Shown here: positions 1,316 through 46,400 of the stretch, piece after piece
Layout: each line of letters begins with the position of its first letter
Numbering within the stretch: position 1 is the stretch's first letter
Assembly (NCBI RefSeq): GCF_026151205.1
Contig: NC_087077.1
Location: 9,601,983-9,665,982, forward strand
Direction of reading: 5' to 3'
Length of the DNA stretch: 64,000 nt
Origin: Bolinopsis microptera
Lineage: Eukaryota; Ctenophora; Tentaculata; Lobata; Bolinopsidae
Program-made: the position numbers and the translations under genes
Notes under the pieces: model-generated
Databases searched by the model: none
Seen by the model: the letters and a program-made list of their open reading frames with translations, nothing else
Told to the model about the DNA's origin: nothing

Positions 1316-1778
1316 AACAGCTGAGCAAGGTTCCATCATTCTGAACTGTTCCAGAGATGTGTATGTTGAAATTGTGGGAAGCCAGGGACTAACTTTTGAG
1401 TAAAAGTTTGTTTGTTTAAAAGATTTTATTTTGATAAGCAGAGCATATCTATAAAATTGGAAAATTCCAGAGAAACAAACTTTAGAGGTCGCAACGTGAG
1501 ATAACATCGTTTTGCGGTATGCCCCTATAATAAAGCCGAGTGGGGAAATACTTAAAATTAGTAGTTTATACATACAAATTACCCCCACACATATTGACGA
1601 AATATTGACGAAATATTCTGTAAAACCCTCTGGTGTCGAGATTACTCCATCAGATCCCAAATTCGGATCCACTACTGTTAAGGAGACCCGCATCCAGTAG
1701 GGACTGTCAGCGGTAAGCTACAGCTCCTGCTGGTAATCGACTCGGAAAACAGTGGTGGTCCCCGTTTTTGGGTTGGAA

Positions 1779-2240
1779 ATGATGAAAACCAGATCTAAAT
1801 CTAACAATGAAGTAGACTGTATTCAGTTGGTTCCTTTTGGTGGCACACTGGTACCAGAAATTGACATCAGAAGTGGATCAAGCTCGGACAGTACATTAGA
1901 CATTCTGCTTCAGCCTGATAATCTAAGGGAAGTTACATCTGACAGCCAGACCTCAACTGACATCTCCGGAGAGACCAATGATACCTGCCCTGTTTGTTCC
2001 TCTCTGTGTACTGACCTTGATGCGGCAGTTTGCTGCAATAGTTGCGAAAGATGGTTCCACTGTACTTGTATTAACATGAGTAGCCTAATCTATGAACAGC
2101 TTATAAACACTTCCACTGGTTGGTTCTGTAACGAGTGTGTTGATATACAATCAACTTCTGAAAATAGTACTCAGTTAACTCAGTTCCTTCTGGAACTAGG
2201 AGACCCTGATGTTACAGGAACCCAAAGAGAAGACGAGTGA
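1779..2240 (+). CDS. PHD-finger N-terminal region of the non-LTR element
   Basis: A frame open from 1752 has its first ATG at 1779 and runs to a stop at 2240 (153 codons). Residues about 62-120 carry a C4HC3 PHD-type zinc finger: CPVC, then a CNSC pair, WFHCTC, and CNEC. PHD fingers usually bind histone tails, so a role in choosing chromatin or in RNP formation is a reasonable inference. The reading overlaps the reverse transcriptase frame by 32 nt (2209-2240) in a different frame. This may be real translational coupling or a frameshift in a once-single ORF; related proteins I recall carry these domains in one chain, but I cannot confirm that here. Confidence 0.6.
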   Translation: MMKTRSKSNNEVDCIQLVPFGGTLVPEIDIRSGSSSDSTLDILLQPDNLREVTSDSQTSTDISGETNDTCPVCSSLCTDLDAAVCCNSCERWFHCTCINMSSLIYEQLINTSTGWFCNECVDIQSTSENSTQLTQFLLELGDPDVTGTQREDE

Positions 2241-5123
2241 AGTTGATGAGCAAGAAGTAATGGTTGAGGCTCCGGCTATTCAGTGCTCACTTCCTGACTA
2301 CGAGAGTTCACAGATCTCCTCCCTCCTTTTGTTAGGTCCATGGAAAGGTGAAGAAGTGAAGATTAAGTGTGAGGAAATTTACGATGAGATTGTTCAATGG
2401 AAGAGAAATCTATTTATTCTCCCCTCAGGGGCGATTGGCAAGGTGTTCATAGAGGAGATGACCAAGGTTGTTAAAAACTTTGGATCAGGCAGTGCTATGG
2501 AGAGAATTTGTTTGACACTCTTAATGATAATGCCGGCCTTGCTGCTTCAGAAGCCAACCAAGAAATCAAAGACTGCAGACCACAGCAAAGCCTTGAAACG
2601 AAGAATGGAACTATGGCAAGAGGGAAAGTTGACTGAACTCCTGAGAGAAGGTAGAGAAATCCAGAGGAGGATTGGAGGAAGGAAGTACGAGAAGGGACAG
2701 ATTGAAAAGGTGTTCACTCAACTGATGATGGAGGGAAAAGTATCTGCGGCAATGCGCTGGATAGGAGAGAGAGCAACATGTGCGCTTAACCCCACAGCAG
2801 AAGTTATTAAAGTCCTCAAGGAGAAACATCCGAAAGCCACCCCAGCCCCAGAAGGCAGTTGCCTTAATGGCCCATTTAGACATGTGGAACCGGTCATTTT
2901 TGATAGCATAGACGGAGACAGGATCAGGCATGTAGCCAAGCAAGTTCAGGGTGCTGGAGGGCCTTCAGGCTTGGATTCTGACGGGTGGAAACGGATTCTG
3001 TGTTCAAAGCAGTTCGGGAAAAAGTCAGATGCTCTTTGTAGCGCTATTGCAAACATGGTGAGAGTCCTTTGTGTCAGATATGTTGACCCTGATTTACTGA
3101 AATCCTTCACTGCTTGTAGGCTGGTGCCTCTGGATAAGAAGCCCGGGGTGCGCCCTATAAGGATTGGTGAGGTTATCAGAAGAATTGTTGGCAAATCAGT
3201 TATGATGACATTGCAAGAAGATTTTGCTACCTCAACAGCACCTATTCAGGTTTGTGCGGGCCTTCAAGGAGGAGTGGAGGCTGCAGTCCATGCAGCCAGA
3301 GAGCTCTTTGAAACCCCTGATACAGAAGCAATGATCTTTGTTGATGCTGAGAATGCTTTCAATTTGTTGAACAGAGAAGCAGCACTTAATAACATGTATG
3401 TGGTTTGCCCAGAGGCTGCAACATATCTGATGAACATCTACAGATCCCCTGCGGAGTTATTTATATCTGGCGGAGAGGAGATGATCTTAAGTGAATCTGG
3501 CACTACTCAAGGAGATCCACCTGCCATGGGTTTCTATGCTTGTGCAACTATGCCCTTAATCTACTCTACACACAACATAGAAGGCACCAAACAGATTTGG
3601 TATGCTGATGACTCAGCTGCAGGAGGAAAGTTAGTTGGGCTGCAAAAATGGTGGAAAACTTTGTGTCGCAATGGACCAGGGTTTGGATACCAGCCAAAAC
3701 CTGCCAAGACATGGATAGTGGTGAAGCCTGATTTTGAACAAGCTGCAAAAAAGATGTTTCCTGATGTCAACATCACAACGGTTGGGAAAGGGTATTTAGG
3801 CAGTTTTATTGGGTCAATAGAAGAGCTTTATAGACCAGAAAGTGGAGGAATGGTGTCGTGACGTGAAGCAATTAGCAGGAATTGCATCAAGAGAGCCTCA
3901 AGTTGCATACTCTGCATTTGTATATGGACTTTCGAGAAGATGGAACTATGTGTGTAGGACTACACCTGAGATAGCAGATAGACTTCAACCACTCGAACTT
4001 ACCATCAGAGAGGAGTTCATTCCAGCAATCCTTGATAGAGCATTTAGTTGCACTGACACTCTTAGAGAGATATTTTCTCTACCACCAAGGTATGGAGGGC
4101 TGGGTATCCCTATAATAACAGAACTGGCCAACTCAGAGTTCCTGTATTCAGTCAAAGCTACAGTTTTGCTAAAAACGGCTATACTAAGCCAAGAGGTAAA
4201 CTATCTTGAAGACAAGGATAAAAGCCATGAAATCAAGACATCCATCAGTAAAGATCGCAATGAGTATTACACCAGAAGACAGGAGGCAATTCAGGAGTCT
4301 CTGTCACAAACATCTAAACTTATGTTACAGCTAGCAGCAGAGAAGGGTGCAAGTTCCTGGCTAACCACTTTACCACTCAAAAGCTATGGTTATCTCCTGA
4401 ATAAGCAACAGTTTTCAGATGCTATAGCTTTAAGATATAACCTGAAGCTGAAAGATTGTCCAAAACTTTGTACTTGTGGTGATTCCTACTCCGCAAACCA
4501 TGCCCTCACGTGTAAACTTGGGGGTTATGTGACCTTGAGGCATAACTCACTTCGAGATACAATAGCTAATATCATGCGGACAGTCAAATGCAAAGACGTT
4601 CAGACAGAGCCCCCTCTTCTTCCAGTCAGCGGCATGCAGTTACCATGAGGTACAGTAACTGGAGATCAAGCCCGACTAGATATATCAGCAAGATCAGTTT
4701 GGAATGCGTTGGAAAGAGCATTTTCTGATGTAAGAGTGTTTCACGCTCCTGCTCCAACCAACGCCGCTAAACCAATTCCTATGATGTATTTGGCTCACGA
4801 GACTGAGAAGAAAAGAGCATATTATGCAAGGGTCCTAGAAGTGGGTCCTAGAAGTGGAAAAAGCTACCTTTACACCTTTAGTTTTCTCCACAACAGGAGG
4901 CATGGGAGTCGAAGCACAACGCTTGATTAAAAAGCTTGCACAAAAGATGGAATCTCCAACGGGTCAGCGTTATTCAGACTCAGTTACATATCTTAGAAAG
5001 CGCTTGCGCTTTGAGGTATTAAAGACAACGGTTATTTCGATAAGGGGGGACAGAGGGCCCAAGTTGCGATATAAACCAGACAATATTGAAGATTTAGATT
5101 TAAATATTGAGCCCTTTGGCTAG
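2209..5123 (+). pseudogene. Reverse transcriptase/endonuclease polyprotein, frameshifted and with an internal stop
   Basis: The first block (2209-3861) holds RT motif A (FVDAENAFNLLNR), a TTQGDPPAMG motif and the catalytic YADD (about 3601). The frame then changes near 3840, continuing as EEWCRDVKQLAG (3842-4648) with a CTCG...H...C knuckle. A TGA at 4646-4648 interrupts a continuous frame whose next residues are GTVTGDQARLDIS and FSDVRVFH, which look like a PD-(D/E)XK nuclease core. At 4831-4856 the 13-mer GGTCCTAGAAGTG is repeated exactly twice in tandem, shifting the frame; the original frame continues at 4854-5123 as EKATFTPLVFSTTGGMG. The frame changes at 3840 and 4844 and the stop show it cannot make a full product. 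Confidence 0.7.
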
Positions 5124-6602: not shown

Positions 6603-6798
6603 AGAAAGGACAGGACAGGACAGGAAATAGGCGGACATTGGCGGACATAGGCGGACATAATGCATAAGCGGACATTAGCGGACAAAAGTGGACAAACTTT
6701 GAACTTGGACGAAAAAATTAATGAGGCTGGTGATACTTTTTTTAAAATGTAGAATTTTATGTGGTTCAACCTGTAGCTCCTGTTTTGAAGGTATTTTG

Positions 6799-8066
6799 AG
6801 TGAAACAAATTTTTTAGTGAAACAAATTTAAAATTTTATCCTTTATTTTACAATCATAATATAATAATATTTATAAGCCTCCGTTTTGAAAGTTTTAAAT
6901 TTTAATATATTCAAATTTCTATTTAAAATTCAATTTAATGTATAAGTCAATAACTGGCCGCCAAAGCCGCGCATTCTTAAAAACATGATTAAATTGTTTA
7001 TGATTATACGACAAATAGAAATAAATTTAAAATTATCCGTGGTTTTTTAAAAATAAATTATAATCTTACCTAAATCCAAAGCCAGCTCTGTAAAATTTAC
7101 TTTTAGATCAAAATATATCGTCAATTCTAAATATTTACAATGCAACATTTCATTAATTTACATACAAGCGTACTCCAGCCCCTGCACGCATCCGTTCTTA
7201 TGCGGCGCGGCTCAAGCCGCGCACGCACGTATTATTTTATACTTTTTGCTTTCTAATAAATATCGTGTCAATGTGTACGTCTAAATGTTCATGCGTTGTG
7301 TAAACCGAATCCAATTGAGATTAGTGACAAGGATAAGGACCCAAGTGCCTGTACGGCTTTTTCGGACCCCTGTGGACCACTACTCTTGAAGTCGCTCTAC
7401 AACTATTGAACATTTATAACTGTTATATAATATATAACGACATTTGACAATTATTATCATTAATCTATAATCTAGCTGTCTTGCTGAGGGGGAGGAGTAA
7501 ACGCTTCACAAACTAAAGTGCTTACAACATACAAAATTTAAAACCATCAACACGGTTATAGTTCATATCAAGGGCCAATTTGGTATACCTCTATTTCGTT
7601 GTAATATCTAGTATATCTTCATATCTTAATACTATAATGAAATACAATAGGATACATGTTTCGAGAAAGAAAGGTTGGTCCCGATTATTAACAAAAGTAA
7701 ACAAAAGTCCATCAGGGACTCCACGGAGTCGAAAAAGGTACACGGCTGCTGTCTGGTGCTGCTAGGCATTTATTGATCAAGATGTTTTATTGTATTGGTT
7801 TTTGATGATTCTATTGTTCGTGACTAATCAAGTTCTAAGTGGGGGTATAAAGTGCTGCTTAAGATACTTCGTCATCTCATATCCAGTATAATGAATAAGA
7901 TAGTAAACAATATAGTTTCAGTAGTTGACCCATACAGTTAAGTCCGTCATAACTCACAATTATTAGTCATCTGTCAATTGTCAAAGTCGTTGTGTGTTTA
8001 GTCGCTGAGTTAGCAGTAAGATAAGTTGTTACGCGCGCGCGCGTTTAAATTTGAGAAGTGAGATGT
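6799..8066 (+). repeat. Left inverted arm
   Basis: Reverse-complementary to 14155-15420 over its whole length with scattered differences. Landmarks from outside in are ACTGGCCGCCAAAGCCGCGC (about 6953), the palindrome near 7201, AAGTGCCTGTACGGCTTTTT (about 7343), AACAAAAGTCCATCAGGGAC (about 7700), and the CG-repeat at 8031-8043. No coding sequence is evident. Confidence 0.85.
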
Positions 8067-8894: not shown

Positions 8895-10501
8895 ATGGCG
8901 ATGTCAGAGTGCCTATCCAAAGAAAAAGTAAAGTCATTAGACAAATCATTAGAATCAATAAATACCAACATTGCTGAACTACAGAGGGACCTTAAACTTT
9001 TAGCATCTAGACCTTCCCCTGAATCATCCCCATCTACAGACTCATCTGAGCAGTTTCTGAAGAGCATCTCAGAACAACTCACCGCACTTTCTGCAAATGA
9101 GCCCACTGTAGCTGCAGGCATTGCTGAACTAAAACAGTCTATAAGTTCTATACAGCCATTGCATAACCCTGGTCCTTGCATTCCTCCCAACCTACCTCCT
9201 GCACAGCATCCTCGTCCTCCAGCACCACCTGTCCTTTTGCAGCCACCTCATCATGAGCAGAAACCTGTGGAACTGTTCAAAAACGATTTTATAGATCAGA
9301 AGACTGCGGAAGAACTAGTTGACCTATTTGATTTGAGCAGCACAGACTTCAAAATTGAAAACGAACGCTCCTGCCTATCATATGGGGAACGGTACGATTA
9401 TCCTGGATCTAAGTCGTCCAAGACACCAAAGGCAATACCACCACCCTTGAGAAAACTCATCGACAGAATCAACAGTGAGTTTTGTTCAGGTGACCAACCT
9501 CAGGTTAACAGCTGTTTGGTGAATCGGTTTGACGGCACAAGCAGCACCTTGCCTAGACACTCTGATAACGAGCCTTCTATCCACCCGGAATCAAGTATCT
9601 TTACAGTCTCTCTTGGTACTGCATGTCATGTTTCTTTCTCTGATGCTAGTACAGGTATTGATGAGCACAAGCAACTATGTGGCCCAGGATCATTATATGT
9701 AATGACTCGTCGTAGCCAAGCACTGTTCCACCATCGTATCGATGCAGGCGAGATAACTGGGCTGCGCTACAGTATAACATTGAGATCAGTCAGTTCCCTG
9801 AATAGAAACGCTACATGTATCATTGGGGACTCGAACACCGGCGGACTGAAATTCGGTTCTGATCCTGCCAAGTCATTCGGCAAATGGCTTCCTGGAAAAC
9901 GATTCTTTGCCCCAACTGTCGATAGCATTGATCCTTATGTGTCCTGTGGCTATAGAAACTGTGTTATATTGTGTGGGGTTAATGACCTGAAACAACAGAT
10001 GTAAAAAGCCAAAACGATATTGATATAATCTACAACCATCTAGTTTCAAAAATTGCCCAGATTCAATCTATTAATCCGGGTGTGCATGTATATGTTTGTC
10101 CAACAATTCCTTCTAAACGTGCTGATTTAAATAGAAAGCTTATATACTTTAACAGTTTGATTCGATGTAGGCTGCTCCCGTCCAATTTTGGTGTCAGTTA
10201 TGTGGATGGATTTGATGAGTTCTGTGATAGGGATGGTCTCCTTGACCGCTCTCTCTCTCGCGACCTCAACAAATACCAAAAACCGGACTTCCTTCACCTC
10301 AACTGGAGGGGACTAGCAAAGTTAGGTCAATTTATTCGTAACGCTGTTCTTCTCAGGATTAACGGTGGTATCGACAAAAGGAAGAGGAGGTCCACAAGGG
10401 TAGACGATAGATCCTACAGGGATGCGACTGCTGGAAGAGAAACTGGTCCTGTTGTTCCTGCTGCTGCTAGTCAGGGTCACGTGGATGGTTACCAACCATG
10501 A
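8895..10501 (+). pseudogene. LINE ORF1: coiled coil, AlkB-like dioxygenase and SGNH hydrolase, one frameshift
   Basis: The ATG at 8895 lies in CCCATGG. Residues about 1-85 look like a coiled coil, about 90-125 is proline-rich. Residues about 200-305 match the AlkB 2-oxoglutarate/Fe(II) dioxygenase pattern: CLVNRFDG, PRHSDNE (HxD iron ligands), FHHRID (distal His) and RYSITLR (the paired Arg that bind 2-oxoglutarate). Then follows an SGNH hydrolase: CIIGDSN (Ser), CGVND (block III) and DFLHLN (block V Asp/His, about 10289). The frame breaks near 9990: it stops at 10004, while the frame running TTDVKSQNDIDII continues without stop to 10501, so one base was lost or gained. Esterase domains in CR1-type ORF1 are known; the AlkB fusion is unusual as far as I know. 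Likely role: nucleic-acid binding and RNP formation, with possible repair of alkylated RNA or DNA (inference). Confidence 0.75.
10498..10501 (+). other. ATGA stop/start overlap of ORF1 and ORF2
   Basis: The ORF1 stop TGA (10499-10501) overlaps the ORF2 start ATG (10498-10500). This arrangement is used by some non-LTR elements for termination-reinitiation of the downstream ORF; whether it operates here is inferred. Confidence 0.7.
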
Positions 10502-13500
10502 CTCCCCTCATTAAGGAGGTATGTCCTGTCTGTTCTAAGAACATAGTCATCGGCCAAACAATAGTTGAATGTTTTCACTGTGACTGCATAATGCACCATA
10601 AATGCTATCGCAAATCAAATCCAAATAGCCAATCTAATGAGTTTTACTGTACTCGTTGTGTCCATTTAGACAAGGTTAAATACAACCCATTTAAACTACT
10701 CACTGACAATGACGACGACGACAACAACCTAGACGAATACACAACCAAAATCTCAAATACTTTAAATGATTGTAACTCATACACTGCATCTGACCTTACA
10801 ATTCTCTGCAACCAAGTAAAGAAACAATCATCTATTCTCTTTCAAAATATTGATGGAAATAAATCAAATTTTGACAACCTTGCCATTGAAACCTGTAGGT
10901 ACAAAACAAAATTCTCCGTAATAGCCCTAGCTGAAACCAACACTGGAAAAGAATTAAGCAATCTATTTCAGCTCGACGGTTATAATAGTTACTATCAGGA
11001 CACAGCACCTAACAAACAAAAGGGCACTGGAGTAGCCCTTTATGTTGACGATAAATTAAATGCTACTGTAATTGAGAATATATCACAAGTCACAGAACAT
11101 CTAGAAATACTTGTCTTATCATTAAGTAACGAAGATCAACCTGTTAATGTAGGTGTTTTGTATCGTCCACCAAGTGGCTGTATTTCCCAAGCTCTAGTTG
11201 AACTTTCTAACCTTCTTGATCACATGCCGAAGTTTAGTTATCTAGCTGGAGACTTTAATATCGATCTTCATGATAAAGATAACAAAAATGTTCAAAAATA
11301 TGAAGAAATATTATTTAGTAAAGGATTTTGTCCGTTAATATCTATTGTTACCCACGAAAAACCAGGCTGTAAAGCATCCTGCATAGATAACATTATTACT
11401 AACGATATTGAGAATGTGATTACTTCAGGCACCCTAAAAGAACGAATAACTCATCACTCACCTATTTTTAACACATTTAACTGGAATGTTGAAGTCAACT
11501 CTGAAAAAACTTCTTTTAAACAATATTACGACTTCTGTCAATCAAATGTTAACGGCTTCCTAGTGGATCTTGAAGATGAGCTTAAAACTAAAACAATCCA
11601 TAACTTTACTGAATTCCATGACACTTACAAAAACTGCGTCGAAAAATCGTTTAAACTAGAGACCCCGAAAACCTCTAAGAGAACTGTTCAGGTTAACCCT
11701 TGGATAACTCCCGGTCTCATTTGCTCAATTAATAATCAGCATAAACTGTACGAAAATTGGGTTGAGATAAGAAATAGAAAATGTAAACTCGGGGAAACTG
11801 ATAACAAGGGCGGCATTTGCCAGTGCCCTGAATGCTCACTAAAACGTAGTCGCTACCTTATCTACAAAGAATACAGAAAAGTCCTAAAGAAAACACGTCA
11901 AACTGTGAAAACAGAATACTTCTCTGGTAAATTTGCTGAAAATAGCGGTGATAGTAAAAAGACCTGGGAACTAATAAATCGTATAAGAGGTAAACGGCGG
12001 CGTGAAATAAAGCCGCTGTTCACCATAGACAACGTTAAGATAACAAATAGAAGGATCATAGCAAACGAATTCAATAAATATTTTGTATCATTAGCCTCTG
12101 ACCTAAATACCGCTTACAATGATCTTGGACAAATTAACATAAACAGTATACCTAGTTTCTATGATTATCTACCGCTTTCAAACACTTCCAGCATTTACAT
12201 GCATGACTGCACAACAGACGAGGTTAGCAAAATCATATCTGAACTTAAAAATGGCAAGGCAAGTGACATACCGATTCATGTAATTAAGCAGTCCTCTAAA
12301 ATAGTTACTCCTTTACTCACTGTACTGTATAACGAATGTATGAAAGATGGCATATTTCCAGATGACCTTAAAGTTGGAAGGATTAGTCCCATTTACAAGA
12401 AAGATAACCAGGAACTCCTTGAAAACTATAGACCTGTATCAACGCTAGCTGTGTTTGGTAAAATATTTGAAAAGATTATATTCAATAGATTATACAGCTT
12501 CTTTCATTCACAGAACTCCTTATATGAAAACCAGTACGGATTCCGTAAAAATCACTCGACCAGTTATGCCCTAAATTACTCAGTGAACCACGTAGAATCT
12601 TGCCTCAAGAAAAAACAACACGTTCTTGGAATATTTATTGATCTTAGTAAAGCCTTTGATACAATATCACATGAAAAGTTACTGCATAAGTTAGAAAATT
12701 ATGGAATCCGTGGAAATGCAAATAACCTTATAGCAAGTTACCTGTCGAACAGATACCAGTATGTCTCGGTATTAGGTGAAGAATCCGAGAAACTTCCAGT
12801 AGTCTATGGAGTGCCGCAGGGGAGCTGTCTTGGTCCCTTACTTTTTATTATTTATATTAATGACATCCGTAACTCATCAATTATAGGAAAGTTTATACTA
12901 TTTGCCGACGACACTAACATATTTATAGAAGACACATGTGTCAAAAGACTATACGAAAAAGGAAATGAAGTTCTATCATTTGTGTACAAGTACATGAAAC
13001 TAAACTTATTACATATTAACATTAAGAAATGTTGTTTTATTCATTTTAAACCCTCACGGGCCAAAGAGGAAGTAGAAAATGACGAGAACATACTAACTTT
13101 AAATAATGTAGTTATTAAAAGAGTTCAAGAAGCTAAATTTCTAGGCGTTATTATTGACGACCAACTTAAATGGAAATCACATACGCAGTCACTTAACTCA
13201 AAACTTAAATGCGAAGTAGGAAAGCTGTGCAGAATACGACACATTGTCCCAAAGCAGTATTATAAGGATTTATATCATACTCTATTTGAATCACATTTAG
13301 GATTTGGAATATCTGTGTGGGGTGGTATTAGCAATAACCGACTTGAACCTATCTTTAAAACACAGAAAAAGTGTATAAGAATTCTGTTTGGGGATAGAGA
13401 AGCTTACCTAGAGAAGTTTAAAACGTGTGCCCGAACACGACCTGTTGATAAGCAAAGACTGGGGGTGGACTTTTACCAAAAAGAACACTCCAAGCCCTTG

Positions 13501-13848
13501 TTTAAAACCCACAGGTTGTTGACGGTCCACAATCTGTACAAGTACACTTGTCTCTTAGAACTATTCAAAATTAATAAGTTAGAGGAACCATTATCACTGT
13601 ACTCATCATTTAACAGGTCACCACGACGAGAGGATTATTTCATTACATCACAACCATCCTCACAATTCATCTACCAATCATCCTACATGTGGAACAGCTG
13701 TCGACAAACATCAAGTAAGATAAGTTTTAATACCCCGACAAACGGGTTTAAGAATATATTGAAAATTGCCTCACGAGAATTGCAATTCAAGCATGATACA
13801 CTTGATTGGTGTGAGCTTAATTTTGCCACAAATGAGCTCAAGTTCTGA
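10498..13848 (+). CDS. LINE ORF2: PHD-like finger, APE endonuclease, reverse transcriptase
   Basis: An open frame of 1116 codons. Residues 9-53 form a C4HC3 PHD-like finger (CPVC, CFHC, HHKC, CTRC). An exonuclease/endonuclease/phosphatase domain follows at about 115-325: ETN (about 142), YRPP, AGDFNID (about 252), DNIITND and THHSP. A cysteine cluster CQCPEC lies near residue 440. The RT spans about 600-850: NYRPVSTL, QYGFRKNHS, FIDLSKAFD, GVPQGSCLGP and the catalytic FADD (about residue 801). A C-terminal region follows. Catalytic residues are all present, so this ORF could still be active in trans even though the copy's ORF1 is frameshifted. Loss of the endonuclease SDH motif in favour of THHS is a minor oddity. 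Confidence 0.88.
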   Translation: MTPLIKEVCPVCSKNIVIGQTIVECFHCDCIMHHKCYRKSNPNSQSNEFYCTRCVHLDKVKYNPFKLLTDNDDDDNNLDEYTTKISNTLNDCNSYTASDLTILCNQVKKQSSILFQNIDGNKSNFDNLAIETCRYKTKFSVIALAETNTGKELSNLFQLDGYNSYYQDTAPNKQKGTGVALYVDDKLNATVIENISQVTEHLEILVLSLSNEDQPVNVGVLYRPPSGCISQALVELSNLLDHMPKFSYLAGDFNIDLHDKDNKNVQKYEEILFSKGFCPLISIVTHEKPGCKASCIDNIITNDIENVITSGTLKERITHHSPIFNTFNWNVEVNSEKTSFKQYYDFCQSNVNGFLVDLEDELKTKTIHNFTEFHDTYKNCVEKSFKLETPKTSKRTVQVNPWITPGLICSINNQHKLYENWVEIRNRKCKLGETDNKGGICQCPECSLKRSRYLIYKEYRKVLKKTRQTVKTEYFSGKFAENSGDSKKTWELINRIRGKRRREIKPLFTIDNVKITNRRIIANEFNKYFVSLASDLNTAYNDLGQININSIPSFYDYLPLSNTSSIYMHDCTTDEVSKIISELKNGKASDIPIHVIKQSSKIVTPLLTVLYNECMKDGIFPDDLKVGRISPIYKKDNQELLENYRPVSTLAVFGKIFEKIIFNRLYSFFHSQNSLYENQYGFRKNHSTSYALNYSVNHVESCLKKKQHVLGIFIDLSKAFDTISHEKLLHKLENYGIRGNANNLIASYLSNRYQYVSVLGEESEKLPVVYGVPQGSCLGPLLFIIYINDIRNSSIIGKFILFADDTNIFIEDTCVKRLYEKGNEVLSFVYKYMKLNLLHINIKKCCFIHFKPSRAKEEVENDENILTLNNVVIKRVQEAKFLGVIIDDQLKWKSHTQSLNSKLKCEVGKLCRIRHIVPKQYYKDLYHTLFESHLGFGISVWGGISNNRLEPIFKTQKKCIRILFGDREAYLEKFKTCARTRPVDKQRLGVDFYQKEHSKPLFKTHRLLTVHNLYKYTCLLELFKINKLEEPLSLYSSFNRSPRREDYFITSQPSSQFIYQSSYMWNSCRQTSSKISFNTPTNGFKNILKIASRELQFKHDTLDWCELNFATNELKF

Positions 13849-14154
13849 TTTATGTGAGTTACTAAAATGACCATATATCTTTTCTCATACATATAACCAC
13901 TGCACTCCAACCAAAAACATTACTTACACCATACTCCACAAATGATATATATATATATACACAAACACACTAGTACCGAGCAATCGCACTGTAAAACATG
14001 CTCACGATACACTCAAAATTGGAAATATTCAACGGCTTGTATATGAAACTTACACTTACACTCAGTGTACTGCACCCAGTGTTAACTAGTATTACACACT
14101 GGTAAACTCTACGTAACGCGCGAAAATAATAATTCTATGGCGTTCTTATTGTCA

Positions 14155-15420
14155 CATCTCACGTCGACGGGATTAAACGCGCGCGCGCGTAACATCTTAT
14201 CTTACTGCTATCTCAACGAATAAACACACAACGACTTTGACAATTGACCGACGACTTAACGATTGTGAGTTATGACGGACTTAACTGTATGGGTCAACTA
14301 CTAAAACTGCATTGTATACTATCTTAATCATTATACTGGACATGAGATGACGAAGTATCTTGAGCAGCACTTTATACCTCCACTTAGAACTTGATTAGTC
14401 ACGAACAATAGAATCATTATACATCAATACAATAAAACATCTTGATCAATAAATGCCTAGCAGCACCAGACAGCAGCCGTGTACCTTTTTCGACTCCACG
14501 GAGTCCCTGATGGACTTTTGTTTACTTTTGTTAATAATTTGACCGCAACCTTTCTTTCTCGAAACACAAATCCTACTGTACTTCATTACAGTATTAAGAT
14601 AATATAAAGCAAATCATGTGAATATATGACTACGAAATAGATCTATAGACTTGTCCATAATATTTAATACCGTATTGATGGTTTTGAATTTTGTATATTG
14701 AATTTTAATGTGAAGCGTTTACTCTTCCCCCTCGGCAATTAATTAGAAAGTTAGATTAATGACAATAATTGCCAAATGACGTAGTAGATATAGATGTTCA
14801 ATGTTGTAGAGTGATTTCAAGAGTAGTGGTCCACAGGGGCCCGAAAAAGCCGTACAGGCACTTGGGTCCTTATCCTTGTCACTAGTCCCAATTGGATTCA
14901 CTTTACACAAAACATGAACGTTTACAATTTAGACGTACACATTGGCACGATATTTATTAGAAAGCAAACAGTATAAAATAATACGTGCGTGCGCGGCTTG
15001 AGCCGCGCCGCATAACAATTTATGCGTTTAGGGGCTGGAGTACGCGTGTTTACAGATTAATGAATTGTTGCATTGTAAATATTTAAAGTTGACGATATAT
15101 TATGATTTAATAGTAAATTTTTCAAAGCTGGCTTTGGACTTAGGTAAAATTATATAATTTATTTATTTAAAAGAAAAAATCACGGATAGTTTTAAATTTA
15201 CATAGTCGTATAACTATAATCAAGTTAATCCTGTTTTCAAGAATGCGCGGCTTTGGCGGCCAGTTATTGACTTGTACATAAAATTGAATTTTAAATAGAA
15301 ATGTGAATGTATTAAAATTTAAAACTTTCAAAACGGAGGCTTATAAATATTATTATATTATGATTGTAAAATAAAGGATAAAATTTTAAATTTGTTTCAC
15401 TAAAAAAAATTTGTTTCACT
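14155..15420 (-). repeat. Right inverted arm
   Basis: Reverse complement of 6799-8066. The inner edge carries a CGCGCGCGCG tract at 14178-14187 and the outer end is ATTTGTTTCACT. No coding sequence seen. Confidence 0.85.
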
Positions 15421-15429
15421 AGAACATAA

Positions 15430-30065: not shown

Positions 30066-33000
30066 TGATTGATTGAGGAGCACTACCCGAAGGCATTACT
30101 CAGCACTAACGCCTTAAAATCTTTAATTACAATCAAATATAAATATATGCACACAATGTATAAAGTATTAATAATGTATAAAATATGATTATGCTATTAG
30201 CAAATTTAAATAGTACTATTAAGAATTTTAAATAACTCTTATCTCTTGACATAAATTTAGAACAGCGACACAGGGTCTGAAGAATGCGCGGTGATATTTT
30301 TATCTTTTAAAAGTTGTAAATGACAGTGAAATTGCGCGGTGTCGATAGCATTGTAAAAAATGCTCGAAGATAGTCATATTTTGTTATGAGGTTAAAGTTT
30401 TGTTGCTCGTTATTATGATCAACGTATGTTGTACCAAATTATTTAAATTTCTAAAAGTACGAAAGTTGAGTTGTCCCAGTCCTTGTCATCCGGTTTATGT
30501 GCTTGTGCAGTAAGCACATGCTTGTTGACTGTAGACTTGAATGAATTTAGGAATTTGTCTTGTAGGCAAGTGGTGACATATTTTATGTCCTTGTTAATTA
30601 TGTTGACTGTTTGGTTATATAACTTAGGCCCAATGTAAGAAATGCTCTTGTCTGAATTACATAAACGGTTAAATGGTACTGCAAAGAACTCAGGTTCTCT
30701 TCTAGGTGCGTTTAAGTTTGAAACAGTGAACATTCTTATAATATTTGGTGGTGCAGTGTTAGAATAAACTTTGTGCATTAAGCATAATATACATTTAGCT
30801 ATCACGTTCGGTAAAGCTAATACTTCTAGTTTATTGAAAATTTCCTTTGTGTGTGAAGGTGTGCTATTCAGATCTTTGTCATAAAAATAGCGGTGGTATT
30901 GGTTATCTGCAGCGCGAATGCCCTTTTTCTGGGCCGAGAAGACTCTTTTAACGGAGTTTAGCGATCTTGTTCCCCAAACTGTGCAGCAGTAGTACAAGTG
31001 AGACTGAACAAAGCTGTTGTATATCAACTTGAGTGCTTTGTTAGGTACTGAGCCTTTGAGTTTGTAGAGAATACTCGCATTTCTAGATACTTTAGTGGCT
31101 AAATGTCTAATGTGGTGGGCCCAATTTAGCTTAGTATCAATGATCACGCCAAGAAACTTTTCGTGATAACTTTGCTTTAGTCGCTCGCCTCCCATGTAGA
31201 TTTCTATATCCTTAGTTTTCTTATTTGTAAAGATCATATATTTAGTTTTGCTAGCATTTAATTTAAGCCCGTTATTAGTAGCCCAATCAATTATCAAAGT
31301 CAGAATCTCATTCACCAATGCATTAAGTTGTTCAAATGTATCTGTACTTATTATTAGGTTTGCGTCGTCAGCGAAATAAATATGTTTAGCTAAATTACTA
31401 ATCTGAGGAAGGTCGTTGATGTAGATTATGAACAGAATTGGTCCGAGAATGGAGCCCTGTGGTACTCCGTAGTTAAGTTTGAGGTGAGAGGACTTGCAGT
31501 TGTTGACGCTCACGTATTGCTCTCTATCGGTTAGATATGAGTGAAACCAAGATAAAGCCAACCCCCGAACTCCATAGTGCTCAAGTTTTCTCAGAAGAAT
31601 ACTGCTGTCAACCATGTCAAAGGCCTTGCTGTAGTCCAATAGAAGCAGTGCTGTGACCTGCTTTTTTTCTAGTGCCCTGTGAATATGGTTTTGGGCTTCT
31701 AGTAAAGCATGTTCGCAGCTGTGCCCAGCCCGAAATCCGTATTGAGAGTCAAATAGGATTTTCTCTGTCTTTAAGTGATCTAATAGTCGCGCTTGCATAA
31801 TTTTTTCAAAGATTTTTGAGAAACATGAGAGTAGTGAGATAGGTCGATAGTTTGAAACTTCAGCACGTGACCCACCTTTGTGAAGTGGAACTACTTTCGC
31901 GATTTTCAATTTATGCGGAAACTTCCCCTGATGTAGAGACGCAGAGACTAGGCAGCTAAGCACTGGTGCAAGTATATTGCTCACTTTTTTCAGGGGAAGT
32001 ATACTCATATCAGAAGTCGACTTAATCTTCAAACCCTTAACTATTTCAATTATTTCTGATGCGAACGAATCTTCTAGATTCATGCTCCGCTGGCATTTGC
32101 TATCTTGAGTTTCTGTTACGATAGTCCTGCCCTCAGAGCATACGAGACCATTTTCTCTCTTAAGAGTCTCAGCTATATTGCAGAAATAGTCATTGAAGCT
32201 ATTCGCAATTTGCTGAGAATCTGTTATCTCGCTCCCATTATAGTTAATTTTGTTTATCTTAATTTTGCCTTTTTTCTTTCTGTTTAACAAGTTATTAACC
32301 ATTTGCCATTGTTTTCTGCTGTCGCTAGAATATTTTGTAAAGTACGCGTTGTAATATTTGTTTTTGGCCTTATCCACGTGTTTATTCACAAATTTCTTCA
32401 TTTTCTTGTACCTAATATCATTTTCAGTGGTCGGGTTTGTGACAAAATCTTCATAAAATTTATTTTTGCGATCACATGCGCACCGTAACCATTCTTGGAT
32501 CCACGGCTTTGTGTTTTTACGGCGGCCTGGTTTACTCTTTTTTGCCTTAATTGGGAAATTTCGGTCGTATAGTTCACTATATTTTTTATCGAAAGCCTCA
32601 AATTTTTCATCTACAGAATCATAGTTATTAACCAAGTTCCAGTCTACCGCAGAAATGTCGTTCTCGAACTTTTGGATACTGTCATCGTTTATTACTCGAG
32701 AAGAAATTTCTGTTGTATCTTCTTGAAGTTTACAACTGAGCCTATTCTGATCAACCATGATTGTGACAAAAGTTGCCAAGTGGTCAGAGATTGACTCAGA
32801 AATTACTCCCGATTTTGTAACAGCGTGGCAATTATTGACGAAAATATGGTCAATGATTGTCGCACTGTGATCTGTGACTCTAGTTGGTCTAGATATCACA
32901 GGAGCGAACCCATGCTCTGCTAGAGTGTCCATATACTTAGTGACAGAGTCTATTCTCCCGTAATCTAGTAGGTCTATGTTAGTATCACCGGCCAGTATGA

Positions 33001-33600
33001 TATTTTTGTTTCGATGTCTTGCTAAGTTACGGAGGAAAATTTTTAATTGTTCAAGGAAACCATTCAAATCCCCACTTGGAGAGCGATATATATTACAGAT
33101 TAACGCGTTTTTGTGCCCTTTCAAGGTAATTTCTGCAACCAAGAATTCTCCTATCTTAGGATTATCGTGGCAACATAGAGCGCTCTTGACGTTTATGTCA
33201 GATAATTCACATAGTTTTTTGTTAACATATATAACTAATCCTCCACCACGATTTGACGCTCTGGCGGGAGTCTGAACATACGGTGGATAGAAACCGTCTA
33301 GTTCGAGCTCCTCTCCCTGAAAAGGCAAACATTCCGTGTTACAATTTGTTTCATTGAAGCAGAGAACGTCGTATTTTGTGTATTGATCTATATTCTCCCG
33401 AAATTCTTCAATGTTCCCATTAAGTGACCTAACGTTTAGCGAGAAAAGTTTTAATTCATACTCCTTCGTATTTTTTATTGCTTTCGCGGTATAGTATTTG
33501 CAGTTATTTAGAAGACTAGACGTTGTTTCCCATGGATTCAAATCAGCATCAGTATCATCACGATCACCTATTTGATTTGATAGGTGGTCGCGATTAAATA
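30066..33600 (-). mobile_element. CR1/jockey-like LINE, ORF2 intact
   Basis: The element reads on the - strand. The 3' end is marked by a short CAATCAATCAA tail at about 30066-30078, preceded by about 365 bp of 3' sequence. The coding frame extends upstream of the first listed residue to about 33592 without an obvious ATG. No ORF1 was found, so the copy is probably 5'-truncated or lacks ORF1. It lies between the secreted gene's exon 1 (29606) and the metaxin start (34466). Confidence 0.8.
30443..33541 (-). CDS. LINE ORF2: APE endonuclease and reverse transcriptase
   Basis: About 1032 codons without interruption. The endonuclease occupies about residues 30-265: SLNVRSL, NETNCN, YRSPSG, AGDTNIDLL, DHIFVNN and SISDHLA, which is the full EEP set including SDH. 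The RT spans about 540-790: VVPLHKGG, NYRPISLL, QYGFRAGHS, LLDYSKAFD, GVPQGSILGP and YFADDANL (catalytic FADD). A conserved C-terminal segment after the RT includes FLGVIIDTKLNW. All catalytic residues are present, so this is a recent insertion. The frame is read from TTG at 33541 and continues upstream in frame; the true start is not determined. Within the APE-type LINEs I would place it in the CR1/L2/jockey assemblage, without choosing a clade. Confidence 0.9.
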   Translation of the reverse strand: MNPWETTSSLLNNCKYYTAKAIKNTKEYELKLFSLNVRSLNGNIEEFRENIDQYTKYDVLCFNETNCNTECLPFQGEELELDGFYPPYVQTPARASNRGGGLVIYVNKKLCELSDINVKSALCCHDNPKIGEFLVAEITLKGHKNALICNIYRSPSGDLNGFLEQLKIFLRNLARHRNKNIILAGDTNIDLLDYGRIDSVTKYMDTLAEHGFAPVISRPTRVTDHSATIIDHIFVNNCHAVTKSGVISESISDHLATFVTIMVDQNRLSCKLQEDTTEISSRVINDDSIQKFENDISAVDWNLVNNYDSVDEKFEAFDKKYSELYDRNFPIKAKKSKPGRRKNTKPWIQEWLRCACDRKNKFYEDFVTNPTTENDIRYKKMKKFVNKHVDKAKNKYYNAYFTKYSSDSRKQWQMVNNLLNRKKKGKIKINKINYNGSEITDSQQIANSFNDYFCNIAETLKRENGLVCSEGRTIVTETQDSKCQRSMNLEDSFASEIIEIVKGLKIKSTSDMSILPLKKVSNILAPVLSCLVSASLHQGKFPHKLKIAKVVPLHKGGSRAEVSNYRPISLLSCFSKIFEKIMQARLLDHLKTEKILFDSQYGFRAGHSCEHALLEAQNHIHRALEKKQVTALLLLDYSKAFDMVDSSILLRKLEHYGVRGLALSWFHSYLTDREQYVSVNNCKSSHLKLNYGVPQGSILGPILFIIYINDLPQISNLAKHIYFADDANLIISTDTFEQLNALVNEILTLIIDWATNNGLKLNASKTKYMIFTNKKTKDIEIYMGGERLKQSYHEKFLGVIIDTKLNWAHHIRHLATKVSRNASILYKLKGSVPNKALKLIYNSFVQSHLYYCCTVWGTRSLNSVKRVFSAQKKGIRAADNQYHRYFYDKDLNSTPSHTKEIFNKLEVLALPNVIAKCILCLMHKVYSNTAPPNIIRMFTVSNLNAPRREPEFFAVPFNRLCNSDKSISYIGPKLYNQTVNIINKDIKYVTTCLQDKFLNSFKSTVNKHVLTAQAHKPDDKDWDNSTFVLLEI

Positions 33601-40400: not shown

Positions 40401-43400
40401 TGCTGTGCTATGTTTGTTTAGAGCAAAAATGGTTTATCGCAGTTTTATTTCCGCAACAGAGCCAAAAGCATTCATGGAGTTCATTTTCCATATCATTTTC
40501 CTCGTTAAATATCACGTGCTTATTGTTAACTTCTAGATAACAATTCTAATCTTCTATATCTTTTCACTACTATCATATTTCAGATGTTTTCACTTTGGTT
40601 AGAAGAGAGTAACTATCAGAATGTTATGTTGCCCTACTATAGGAGCGTCTTCAAACTTCCTTATTCTTTTCTTAAAGCTGCTGTGAGTTTTTATTCGCTC
40701 AGATTTCATATTTCATGCTCTTGATCTTCTATTTTTCGGCCTTAAAAGAAATTTGAACTATAGCCATTAGATAATCTTATATAGTTGATAATGTACAAAC
40801 TTTTCAGCAAATGAAGAGATTCGTTAAATGCATGATACTTGCAAGATACAGCCTGGACGATAACGTGGAATTGCCTGAGATAGCTGCCAAGGTAAGCTAG
40901 TTATATCTCATTGATTCCCAGAATCCCAGTGACAAACTCACAATTTGTGTCGCATTCAAATAAAAAGGTTTTGATTTTAATCGTTTAAAAAGAGGAGGTG
41001 TTCTAGCAAATGTGTGGGCGAAATTGCGATTATGTCGCTTTATGTCGCGCGAGGTTTATTTCTCAAAATTGTGGGTATGTCGCTTTTATTTGGATCCATA
41101 AATAACGAAAAGTTACTTGCGTGCGCGTATTTTTATATAGATTATAGCGTTACATATTGTAAATTTGTTGAGCTCCTCGTAGGACGGCGGCTTAGGCCGC
41201 TTAAGTTTATAAGAATACCCCGGTTCGAGCCTCGCTAGAGGTCTTTTTTTTTGGCATTTATTGATTACTTTACTACAATTATCAGCAGAGCACCTTAGTA
41301 ATACACTTTATCAGATAAATTATACTGTTCGGACTTCAGCTAGAGAAGACTTGCCTTCAAGAATTTGTCCGGAGAAGGCCTCGTTCACACTGGAACATGT
41401 CAAATGGCAAACGGAGTTATCTGTTAATGGTTTTTTTGTTGTTTATGGTTAGAATTTAGAATGGAATCAATTTGATGAGGATCCAGAGTTAATTACCTGC
41501 TAGGATTAATAAGTCAGTTCTACAGTTGAAGAGGTCACTTTTTCAAACTTTTAATGGAGAAATTGGCTCGGAACTTCATTCCTAGATTCATCACTTTCAG
41601 TTAGTAACTACGGTGTACCATGGAACCAGTTAAAGCATCGGATCAATTCAAAACATTCACATCCCACATTCTTAGATCTACATCCTTTACCAAAACCAGT
41701 TTGACCACTTAACTTTTCATTACTAATTGCAATATTAGATGCGACAGCCTGTAGCCAGGAACAGTACCTTGAGATTTCGACCGTAACCGGACCATTTTTA
41801 CCGTTACCGGACCATATCATCTCCATCTTGTGGCATGGTTCCCAAGCCTGATAGTAATACATATGCACTATGGCAGTATCTAGTATATCCTGAGCGGTGG
41901 AGATCTATCATTGTATTGGTGAAAACTTCTCTCAATAAAGCACTGTTCGTTACCTGTTTATTAAAGGTATTTCCAATCAATATCATGTGTGATAATTCCA
42001 GCCTATATCTATTTTTCAGGAATCATAAACAATAGTCAATATACGTTAGTGAAGTGTTAAGTTTTCCACCTCAACGTCAGCGAAAGCTCTAACAAGTCAA
42101 TATACGTACAATACAATGCCTTCTCCGGGTAGTCTTCTCCTGACAGTATTATTTATCTATGTAAACTCGCGCACGCACCTACCTTTTTAGTTAGGGAATA
42201 ATGCAAAATGTCTGGGAAAAAATTTGCAACAAGCTGATTTTTACAGGAATGTGTTTTCCATAGTGTCAGGAACCACCCCAAAGAGTTTTCAATCTGGATC
42301 TGTTGAGCAAAAAAAGTTACAGCTAATTTTCTTCAGGCGCGTATGTCAGCCGGAGGACCGCACTCGTAACTATCGTAATAAAGACCCCCAGGAACACCAT
42401 AGGGAGTGAAAAATGACCGCAATAGTGACATTATGTGGGGCGAATCAGTGCTTTAGGGTCGTCAGATCTTTACTTATTGAGATAATTTCATTTTTATAGG
42501 CTAACCTCTCAAAAATTTACTAAAATTTTGAAATTTTACTTAAATTTGGAAATTTAGCAAAATTGTTATACAATTAAAAAATTGTCTAGTTATCAGTATT
42601 TAAATTCTAAAATCTACTTTCAATTGTCAATTGATCCTTATATTAGTATAGTAAATAATATACATATCACATCAAATTCTGTAAAAAAAGGTCCTGAATT
42701 ATTAGCATGTTGTCTTTGATTGGCAACTATTTGGTCACTTCTGGCTATCCCATTTCCTCAGAGTTGTTTGATTCTCCTGAATCGTCCTGTCTTTCGGGTG
42801 CATTAGTGCAACTTAATCCATGACATTGGCCACATGCAGGTAGACATTTAAAGCCATACTTCCGGCAGGAACACCTTAAGTACTTACAAGGGTTCTATTC
42901 TCAACCTCCACCGAGCAATTGCAGCAAATGAGGTTGAGCATCCCTGCCGGGGCACTCGCAGCTTTAGTCGGGATTGGCCGGTAGTATTCTTCAGAACTCA
43001 TCTCCCATCCATAATGTAGTGGATTTAGACTTGCAGTGTCGAGTGTCACCCAGTTATGGTACTGAAGATATGATCTTAATATAATATATATGCTCAGTTG
43101 CAGAGGATGTAGACGGTGGTAGCCTTGATGGGTTGAGTTTTTTCTTTGCTATCATTCTACTGTAGCTGAGAAATCTGAGAGTTTCAAGTGCCTTGGTTTT
43201 ATCTCCATAGATATGTTGAAACAAGGAGAGGCCAGCTTCAATTACTTCATTTGTTGAAACTCTCACAGAGAGTAATGATGCTAAATGACCCTCCTCATGA
43301 AAAGAAACTGAAGTTCGAGATGTTATCGTCGAACAGCCGCACAGCTGCTCTTTGGACAACTTATCATGGTTTCATTTGCTTAATATAAGATTTTATAAGA

Positions 43401-46400
43401 GCAAAACGGTTACATGACTTCGATCTACATCTGTGTGGCTTAGATGTTGCCTATCTTTGCAGCAGCAGGTCGAGGTCAGTACTCCAAAGCTCTACGGCTG
43501 TATCTTGAGCAGATTACCGTACTTGAGATCCAGTATGGGGCACTAGTCAAAACGTTCAAGGTCGTAGGTCTGCACACAGTTCGATATAAATTATAATGAA
43601 CACGAGTGGTCTGGTGTGTGGACAGACCTGACGATCGAACAGCGACTAATGAAGGCTGCAAAGTCATCAGGGGGTTTGTCTGGAAGGAGAATGCGAACTC
43701 ATGAATTTGCCCATAAGTTATGGACTGCAACGCTATCGTACTCAACGGCTTGTTTTCGCATCTGAACGAGAGTCTACACTGGAGGAAAGCTTGCAATATG
43801 AGCTCACAGCAATGCCGATGAGTCTTTTTAACAATGAGCAGATGATGAGAAAGGCAAACAAGGCAGCCCTTGGGCAATACCTCAAGAATGTTGTTGATTG
43901 TACTGTGACATTAAGCAACCCATCCTCTCCATTAATAATTGATGGTGGATGGCTACTCTATCAAGTTACCTCGTTCACAGGCTTTGAAACATACGGCGAC
44001 ATAGCTAATGAATACCTTAAGCTAGTTCCGAAATCCCAACAGCGGAAAGTCATTGTTGTGTTTGATGGCCATGCCCGATCAACAAAAGATCATGAGAATC
44101 AGCGAAGAATCAAGGCATACTGCTCTGATATAGCTATTAAAAGTACTACTGTGTGCACAGTTCCGATGAAAAAACTGTTCAGCAACTCAAAGAACAAGCA
44201 TGAGCTTATAAAGCTTCTTTCAAACGTTTTTACAAAACATGGAATTGAAGCACATGTAGCTACTGATGATGCTGATACCATGGTAGCTAGTAAAGCTTTA
44301 AACTTTTCCTTCTACGAAGATGTTGAGGTAAAAGCAGAGGATACTGATATACTTTGCCTCCTTATTCATCATTTTACTGAGAATCACAATGAAATTGTGA
44401 TGACGACAAGAAACGGCTTACACTCGATCAGTAAAATAGTAAATGCTCTTGATGCCAACATAAAACGCATATATTACTTTTTGTTCACAGTTTCTCAGGA
44501 TGTGACACGGTCAGCAGTATACATGGCTTTGGTAAGGTAAAGATATTGAAAAAGGCAGTTTCTTTTCATGAGGAGGGTCATTTAGCATCATTACTCTCTG
44601 TGAGAGTTTCAACAAATGAAGTAATTGAAGCTGGCCTCTCCTTGTTTCAACATATCTATGGAGATAAAACCAAGGCACTTGAAACTCTCAGATTTCTCAG
44701 CTACAGTAGAATGATAGCAAAGAAAAAACTCAACCCATCAAGGCTACCACCGTCTACATCCTCTGCAACTGAGCATATATATTATATTAAGATCATATCT
44801 TCAGTACCATAACTGGGTGACACTCGACACTGCAAGTCTAAATCCACTACATTATGGATGGGAGATGAGTTCTGAAGGATACTACCGGCCAATCCCGACT
44901 AAAGCTGCGAGTGGCCCGGCAGGGATGCTCAACCTCATTTGCTGCAATTGCTCGGTGGAGGTTGAGAACCCTTGTAAGTACTTAAGGTGTTCCTGCCGGA
45001 AGTATGGCTTTAAATGTCTACCTGCATGTGGCCAATGTCATGGATTAAGTTGCACTAATGCACCCGAAAGACAGGACGATTCAGGAGAATCAAACAACTC
45101 TGAGGAAATGGGATAGCCAGAAGTGACCAAATAGTTGCCAATCAAAGACAACATGCTAATAATTCAGGACCTTTTTTTACAGAATTTGATGTGATATGTA
45201 TATTATTTACTATACTAATATAAGGATCAATTGACAATTGAAAGCAGATTTTAGAATTTAAATACTGATAACTAGACAATGTTTTAATTGTATAACAATT
45301 TTGCTAAATTTCCAAATTTAAGTAAAATTTCAAAATTTTAGTAAATTTTTGAGAGGTTAGCCTATAAAAATGAAATTATCTCAATAAGTAAAGATCTGAC
45401 GACCCTAAAACACTGATTCGCCCCACATAATGTCACTATTGCGGTCATTTTGCACTCCCTATGGTGCTCCTGGGGGTCTTTATTACGATAGTTACGAGTT
45501 TTTCAAGTGCGGTCCTCAGGCTGACATACGCGCCTGGAGAAAATTGGCTGTAACTTTTTTTGCTCAACAGATCCAGATTGAAAACTCTTTGGGGTGGTTC
45601 CTGACACTATGGACAACACATTCCTGTAAAAATCAGCTTGTTGCAAATTATTTCCCAGATGGTCCTGTATTAATGTTAATTGTCCCTAACTATTTTGCAA
45701 TATTTAGGTTCAAATTTGTGCGCATAACCATAGTTTTGAAAAGCGACATACCCACATCTTGAGAAGAAAACATCTACTGTTTAAAAACTTTTTTGTAACG
45801 CGCAGTATAAGATTTTACTGATTATCTGCATAGACTGCATAGCGCTCACGCGCGTACGTCCGCAATATAAGCGCGCTAGACTGGCCGAACGTACACTCGA
45901 TCGAATTGTATCAAAATATTGGATCCGAAATTGGAACTCAAACTTCAAGTACACTTCTACGCTATTTTTACAACTGGAAAAAATCCGAAAATAATGATAA
46001 GAAACAAGTTATGGAATACTTTTGCTTGTGTATATGAAACGCAAGATTACAAATCTTCGTCCCATGCGCACAATAGGAAGTACTAGTTGTCAGCTTATTT
46101 CTTGGAAACGGGAACTTAAGTTAAGAAGAAATGATATTGAAGAACCAAAACGGGCGGAAGAGCAATATTATACAAATTAAAGATAAATGTTCTAAATATC
46201 CCTGAAAGTGATAGCTTCAAATCGTTACAGATTTATGGACTGCTCGAGAACAGAGATCAGGCTAAAATTTTAAACTTCGGCCCAGTCCAAGACAGAACAA
46301 TGGACATCCTGCCATAGCCTGAACGGAGGGTGGACAACAAAGATATCACGCATACAAATGGTGAACATTCAGGGCCAGTGATTATCCACTTGCACTTGGT

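Follow-up and report, generated by a model that had tools for sequence, protein, structure and literature searches.

Can a retrotransposon carry a nucleic-acid demethylase of its own, and what would it use it for? The question is raised by a long interspersed nuclear element (LINE) in a 64,000-nt stretch of the genome of the ctenophore Bolinopsis microptera (RefSeq assembly GCF_026151205.1, contig NC_087077.1, positions 9,601,983 to 9,665,982 of the forward strand; hereafter "the window"), in which an earlier note had read positions 8895..10501 as a first open reading frame (ORF1) fusing an AlkB-type dioxygenase to an SGNH hydrolase. We find that the AlkB domain is genuine, that it possesses all residues for binding iron and 2-oxoglutarate (2OG), and that it is conserved over many LINE families under purifying selection. 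The fusion itself stands, being intact in other copies of the element, but the single frame and the start codon do not: the frame that starts at 8895 runs into a stop at 10004, the remainder lies in a different frame (9986-10501), and the ATG at 8895 lies outside of the LINE and is a chance start, because the similarity to other copies begins at 8940. The broader idea of a retrotransposon with its own putative demethylase gains support from our results; activity and substrate are what we infer.

The AlkB domain and its conservation

All motifs quoted in the earlier note are present, i.e. HSD, the second His and RYSITLR of AlkB, and GDSN, CGVND and DFLHLN of SGNH. In the frame 8895-10004, the AlkB-family profile PF13532 (2OG-FeII_Oxy_2) scores 61.5 bits (E=1.6e-16), almost twice its curated cut-off of 31.2. 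The fold predicted for the domain, with a predicted local distance difference test score (pLDDT) of 92.8 and a predicted template modelling score (pTM) of 0.90, displays the double-stranded beta-helix, and in this model it is the ALKBH2/3 fold. The best matches in the PDB are ALKBH2 and ALKBH3, which are structurally tied (Z-scores differing by less than 1 were counted as ties) and exhibit 20-24% identity to the LINE domain in the structural alignments; by sequence profile ALKBH2 is the best (E=4.6e-12), and ALKBH5 (E=0.81) is the weakest among the AlkB-family matches listed. RNA-virus polyproteins are also found among the best fold matches. The human ALKBH2 and ALKBH3 are stand-alone cellular repair enzymes.

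The set of HxD, H and RxxxxxR comprises basically the sole residues totally conserved in AlkB proteins, the final Arg being most likely specific to AlkB (PMC544882). In our alignment of 48 ORF1s (L009-L052 and L054-L057, all retained by the motif search; L001-L008 were left out, as were L053 and L058, which lack a complete AlkB frame), this whole set belongs to the 14 invariant columns of the domain (G,H,D,S,T,G,S,M,Q,H,R,S,T,R), and with the window counted it is present in 49 of 49 ORF1s. The 48 sequences form 18 groups at 80% identity, with the lowest pairwise identity of 22%. In 21 representatives the corresponding residues H399, D401, H457, R468 and R474 (numbering of L009) are invariant.

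The genome of the window (264.65 Mb in 232 contigs) contains many relatives. A first look for the AlkB domain gave 771 candidates, of which the best 150 were scored; all of these match (E<=6.1e-31), 143 have no stop inside the match, and 13, counting the window copy, show 100% protein identity across the domain, followed by full-length matches of other families at 72-74% and then 42-51% identity. In an analogous search for the reverse transcriptase (RT), the best 150 of 5963 candidates were scored, and the copy counts from both searches are lower bounds. Purifying selection is evident from the ratio of nonsynonymous to synonymous substitution rates (dN/dS, Nei-Gojobori), which for AlkB amounts to 0.08-0.23 in 10 of 12 hand-picked pairs, the other two being one saturated pair and one without synonymous change. 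For SGNH the values are 0.08-0.59 in 9 of 12 pairs, with the two highest resting on at most 7 differences, and the short N-terminal and tail parts of ORF1 exceed 1 in several pairs, with few changes. At one locus an intact ORF1 is closely preceded, on the opposite strand, by a fragment of another AlkB-LINE family (L001:2-487).

Architecture and age of the AlkB-SGNH ORF1

As translated, the intact ORF1 consists of a PHD finger (in most groups), a linker, AlkB, SGNH and a basic tail; in L009 it has 712 amino acids (aa) and opens with the PHD finger. Among the 21 representatives Pfam matches at E<=0.1 were found for AlkB in 20, for Lipase_GDSL_2 in 18 and for PHD in 12, with the PHD cysteines not seen in L043, L044, L045 and L048. 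The SGNH domain is harder to detect by profile than AlkB: PF13472 scores 17.9 bits (E=0.0048) on the C-terminal piece of the window copy alone and 27.4 bits on L009, both below the cut-off of 32.9, and the best match among the 21 intact or near-intact relatives has E=4.7e-07. Nonetheless, the catalytic S490, N540, D642 and H645 (numbering of L009) are invariant in all 21, and the SGNH profile of the LINE ORF1s matches the crystal structure of the ZfL2-1 esterase (4c1b, E=8.5e-4). L030 and L033 have Ser in place of Gly of GDS, and L054 and L057 do not have the Asp at its usual place. Intact frames span approximately 645-751 aa. In the 40 loci that were picked from the AlkB search list for long frames and diversity (20 of 10 kb and 20 of ~2.5 kb), the frame has at least 676 aa in 36, one of which (L032) runs past the fetched end; the shorter ones are L022 (660 aa), L025 (646 aa), L027 (645 aa) and L026 (545 aa), of which L022 and L026 have apparently been shortened by 5' loss.

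Since most loci were found with AlkB as bait, two control searches used other baits to avoid circularity. With the SGNH domain of L045 as the query (best 150 of 525 candidates scored), AlkB was found in all four fetched loci, which had been picked for long frames and for having no match in the AlkB search list (E=3e-17 to 3.7e-21). The bait for the second control was the endonuclease of another LINE in the window, whose ORF2 (30443-33541, minus strand) contains an endonuclease and RT and is 30% identical to ORF2 of the first. The AlkB motif was kept in four of the six regions upstream of plus-strand copies with long ORF2 frames: L054, L056 and L057 possess AlkB plus SGNH, and L055 retains the motif with RT-like sequence in place of the N-terminal side of AlkB. 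Of the other two, L053 has no ORF1 visible in the 2.4 kb fetched and a zinc finger at the start of its ORF2 frame, which is longer than that of 30443-33541, and L058, perhaps a non-autonomous derivative, has an internal deletion that joins the N-terminal part of AlkB to the end of SGNH.

Across the divide of the two LINE types the AlkB domains share 30-34% identity (pairwise E=3e-15 and 2e-21), which, with ORF2 types that are 30% identical, fits a single old acquisition, although ORF1 may also have been exchanged later. A sharp mosaic is seen between two sister families. L011 and L017 share 93-99% nucleotide identity from the 5' end to L011:2273, only 72-82% over L011:2274-3473, which covers the late linker, AlkB and the first two thirds of SGNH, and again 95-100% over L011:3474-4673; downstream, the identity varies again (80-99% in ORF2, 65-96% in the 3' untranslated region, UTR). 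This sharp block within ORF1 is most simply explained by a cassette exchange or template switch, and other domain-wise jumps of identity are seen in L029/L037 and L034/L038. On balance, we lean towards the view that the AlkB-SGNH ORF1 is an old form of ORF1 that is common in a large LINE radiation of the host lineage, being shared by groups with ~30% identical ORF2s and reshuffled between families as a cassette; these LINEs would therefore have long run their own nucleic-acid demethylase. Outside the host, no relatives were found in phage records, in viral contigs searched with the window protein and with an alignment, or in a scan of one prokaryote genome.

Possible role of the domain

The reading that we favour, with a probability of roughly 0.5, is that the AlkB domain demethylates the element's own RNA and thereby eases target-primed reverse transcription, with the esterase tethering the particle to membranes. 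The ORF1 protein would coat the element RNA, and the AlkB domain would remove methyl adducts from it, most likely 1-methyladenine and 3-methylcytosine. These lesions block base pairing and stop reverse transcriptases, hence their removal would let target-primed reverse transcription run through. In a variant of this scheme AlkB would work on the single-stranded cDNA. The esterase would act on the model of ZfL2-1, for whose ORF1 a membrane association has been suggested (PMC3905857).

A competing view holds that the domain erases N6-methyladenosine (m6A) written by the host on the element RNA, to evade decay or sequestration, as has been proposed for an orchid retrotransposon. We regard this as unlikely, though worth serious attention: repair-type lesions are favoured because the repair enzymes are the nearest by sequence, with the ALKBH5 profile match being the weakest of the family listed (E=0.81 vs 4.6e-12 for ALKBH2), and because in human L1 m6A helps retrotransposition and ALKBH5 suppresses it (PMC7873242), so that an eraser need not benefit a LINE. 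In the structural comparison, the margin of the repair-type substrate over m6A is small. Another possibility is that the domain acts on DNA, repairing methylated single-stranded cDNA or target DNA that is opened at integration; it would agree with the fact that ALKBH2, the best match by profile and tied structurally with ALKBH3, is a DNA repair enzyme, and with the PDB titles, which name DNA. On the other hand, ORF1 proteins are presumed to package RNA (PMC3905857) and nothing specific to DNA was found here, making this option quite improbable. Nor do we give appreciably more credit to a binding module or a protein hydroxylase, acting without demethylation of nucleic acids. Some 2OG oxygenases do act on proteins, and the sharp difference of the AlkB-SGNH block between otherwise similar families, as if it was exchanged as a unit, could be expected of a docking module; yet the iron-ligand set is invariant and so is the AlkB-specific second Arg, which goes beyond the needs of a mere scaffold.

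Returning to demethylation of the element RNA, several points weigh against it. The substrate is guessed from family resemblance, and the structural Z-scores of ALKBH5 (19.5) and FTO (18.4) are little below those of ALKBH2/3. No RNA-binding domain was identified in ORF1. The selection shows that AlkB matters for the propagation of the retrotransposon, not what it does, and some of the hand-picked dN/dS pairs share a sequence. The E of HxDxE is lost in the near-identical copy L014 (it is kept in 48 of 49 rows, window counted), a complete AlkB is absent from two of the six endonuclease-bait regions (L053 and L058), and the copy in the window is both truncated and frameshifted. The last point could be taken to indicate a dead fossil; however, the E-value of 1.6e-16, the matches of all 150 scored candidates, the long frames in many families and the dN/dS of 0.08-0.23 leave a negligible chance for either a fossil or a chance resemblance, the latter being rejected by the E-value, the genomic copies and the selection.

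PHD and esterase domains were reportedly described in CR1-like elements by Kapitonov and Jurka in 2003, as cited in PMC4120745 and PMC5408684. The LINEs analyzed here use the same ORF1 building blocks, but unlike in those elements, a single ORF1 combines the two with AlkB. An SGNH esterase that follows a linker is likewise found in type IV ORF1 of the zebrafish L2 element ZfL2-1 (PMC3905857, PMC4120745). The published type has an esterase preceded by a coiled coil and does not include AlkB; its esterase residues are present in our elements. The main text of PMC4120745 does not mention AlkB or a dioxygenase, the ORF1 domains in its figure legend being CCHC, CTD, coiled coil, esterase, PHD, RRM and zinc finger/leucine zipper, and according to this source esterase-type ORF1 is found in two vertebrate groups only. 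The closest analogy for AlkB is a Ty3/Gypsy element of the Phalaenopsis orchid, with an ALKBH5-like ORF that exhibits RNA demethylase activity in vitro (PMC9289625). Both are retrotransposon AlkBs with intact cofactor residues; the orchid domain is kept through several subfamilies. However, the orchid Gypsy is a plant long terminal repeat (LTR) element whose AlkB occupies an additional ORF of its own and is closest to m6A erasers (PMC9289625), whereas the LINE domain is fused within ORF1 between the PHD/linker and the esterase, is closest to ALKBH2/3, and spans 18 groups among 48 ORF1s. Plant and other RNA viruses, likewise selfish RNA-replicating elements, have AlkB domains with the same HxD, H, RxxxxxR set, but they lack a DNA stage and carry the domain within the replicase or polyprotein (PMC544882). 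In insect Jockey-family LINEs a viral RNA helicase was similarly captured into ORF1; this is a different nucleic-acid enzyme, and AlkB is not mentioned in the text of PMC5563155.

Thus, AlkB in a retrotransposon and PHD with esterase in LINE ORF1 are already known, and their union with AlkB in a LINE ORF1 appears new: no LINE with AlkB turned up in the open-access literature searched, with subscription journals, preprints and Repbase outside that search. The RNA template from which a LINE has to be copied may carry methylation or damage, and the control of retrotransposition by base modification is an active question. It would become directly testable with a LINE family that has an ALKBH2/3-like domain built in. 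With AlkB next to a lipid-type esterase, a LINE may clear methyl damage or marks from its own RNA before copying; ORF1 would then appear as an enzyme platform, beyond an RNA coat, and LINEs would join RNA viruses and one plant LTR element among the carriers of a captured AlkB.

The element in the window and its neighbourhood

The window copy (Table 1) exhibits the hallmarks of a LINE, i.e. an RT-bearing ORF2, a start inside ORF1 and a fixed 3' end. Over 6.5 kb it shares 99.4% identity with L011; the genome also contains full-length copies of ~7.2-7.3 kb at other loci. The match starts at 8940 in six and at 8971 in one of seven other copies, which came from the first genome search (the eighth locus found there is the window itself), and the native 5' part of ~0.7 kb, PHD finger included, is absent. 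A small frameshift near 10,000 splits the SGNH part, which is intact in copies elsewhere. Two terminal repeat units are found at the 3' end in 11 of the 12 copies compared and one in L013; L014, whose match stopped earlier, was left out. The 5' truncation and the shared 3' terminus constitute the pattern expected of target-primed insertion. Judged by sequence, the element is an APE-type non-LTR retrotransposon, with the endonuclease profile below the cut-off in the window copy and at 54.2 bits in another, homologous LINE of the window; the PHD finger, esterase and 3' tandem repeats suggest membership of the CR1/L2 clade.

Table 1. Features of the AlkB-LINE and of a related inverted copy (window coordinates)
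Feature	Positions	Strand	Basis
5'-truncated LINE copy	8940..15421	+	blastn vs other genomic copies
First readable ORF1 part: linker, AlkB, first part of SGNH	8940..10003	+	ORF list; other copies have ORF1 intact, with an open frame of 742 aa
AlkB-type 2OG/Fe(II) dioxygenase domain	9264..9797	+	PF13532 profile; predicted fold; PDB comparison
HxDxE (iron ligands H and D, plus E)	9558..9572	+	Conserved in other ORF1s; HSD itself 9558-9566
Second iron-ligand His	9732..9734	+	Invariant in 48/48 other ORF1s
RxxxxxR, here RYSITLR (2OG-binding Arg and AlkB-specific Arg)	9765..9785	+	Both Arg invariant in 48/48; role of motif according to PMC544882
SGNH hydrolase, N-terminal part	9798..10003	+	GDSN 9825-9836, CGVND 9972-9986; D, S, N invariant in alignment
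SGNH hydrolase, C-terminal part, and basic tail	9986..10501	+	Different frame; DFLHLN from 10286; weak PF13472 match
ORF2, 1116 aa, open throughout	10498..13848	+	ORF list; RVT_1 match
Zinc finger (PHD/RING-like), ORF2 N terminus	10519..10660	+	Prok-RING_1 E=5.6e-4, PHD_2 E=0.034, both below cut-off; Cys/His spacing seen directly
Endonuclease (EEP) domain of ORF2	10915..11406	+	PF03372 E=3.2e-4, 21.0 bits vs cut-off 24.5
RT domain of ORF2	12397..13155	+	PF00078 (RVT_1) 126 bits vs cut-off 29.6, E=2e-36
3' UTR, ~1.6 kb, ending in short tandem repeats of (A)nTTTGTTTCACT	13849..15421	+	Common 3' end in 12 copies
Inverted, 3'-UTR-only copy of related LINE	6794..8048	-	Arms 84-95% complementary; minus-strand 3' terminal repeat same as in main copy

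The inverted copy faces the main one, which gives the two the look of a fold-back. A fold-back transposon carrying the LINE was considered and rejected, as the inverted arms are the LINE's own 3' UTR and the second, inverted 3'-UTR copy. Elsewhere in the window, 1737-4648 contains an ORF with a PHD finger (E=1.7e-6), an overlapping one that weakly matches RT (RVT_1 E=0.0068) and a third ORF without matches, and on this basis appears to be a different retroelement with a PHD finger. At 42876-45116 inverted repeats that code much the same peptide flank an ORF (43701-44540), which by eye reads like a FEN/PIN-type nuclease, with no useful Pfam match. Finally, a further RT ORF is located at 58649-60301 (RVT_1 E=2.1e-27, weak match to DUF6451), with no endonuclease match in its frame.
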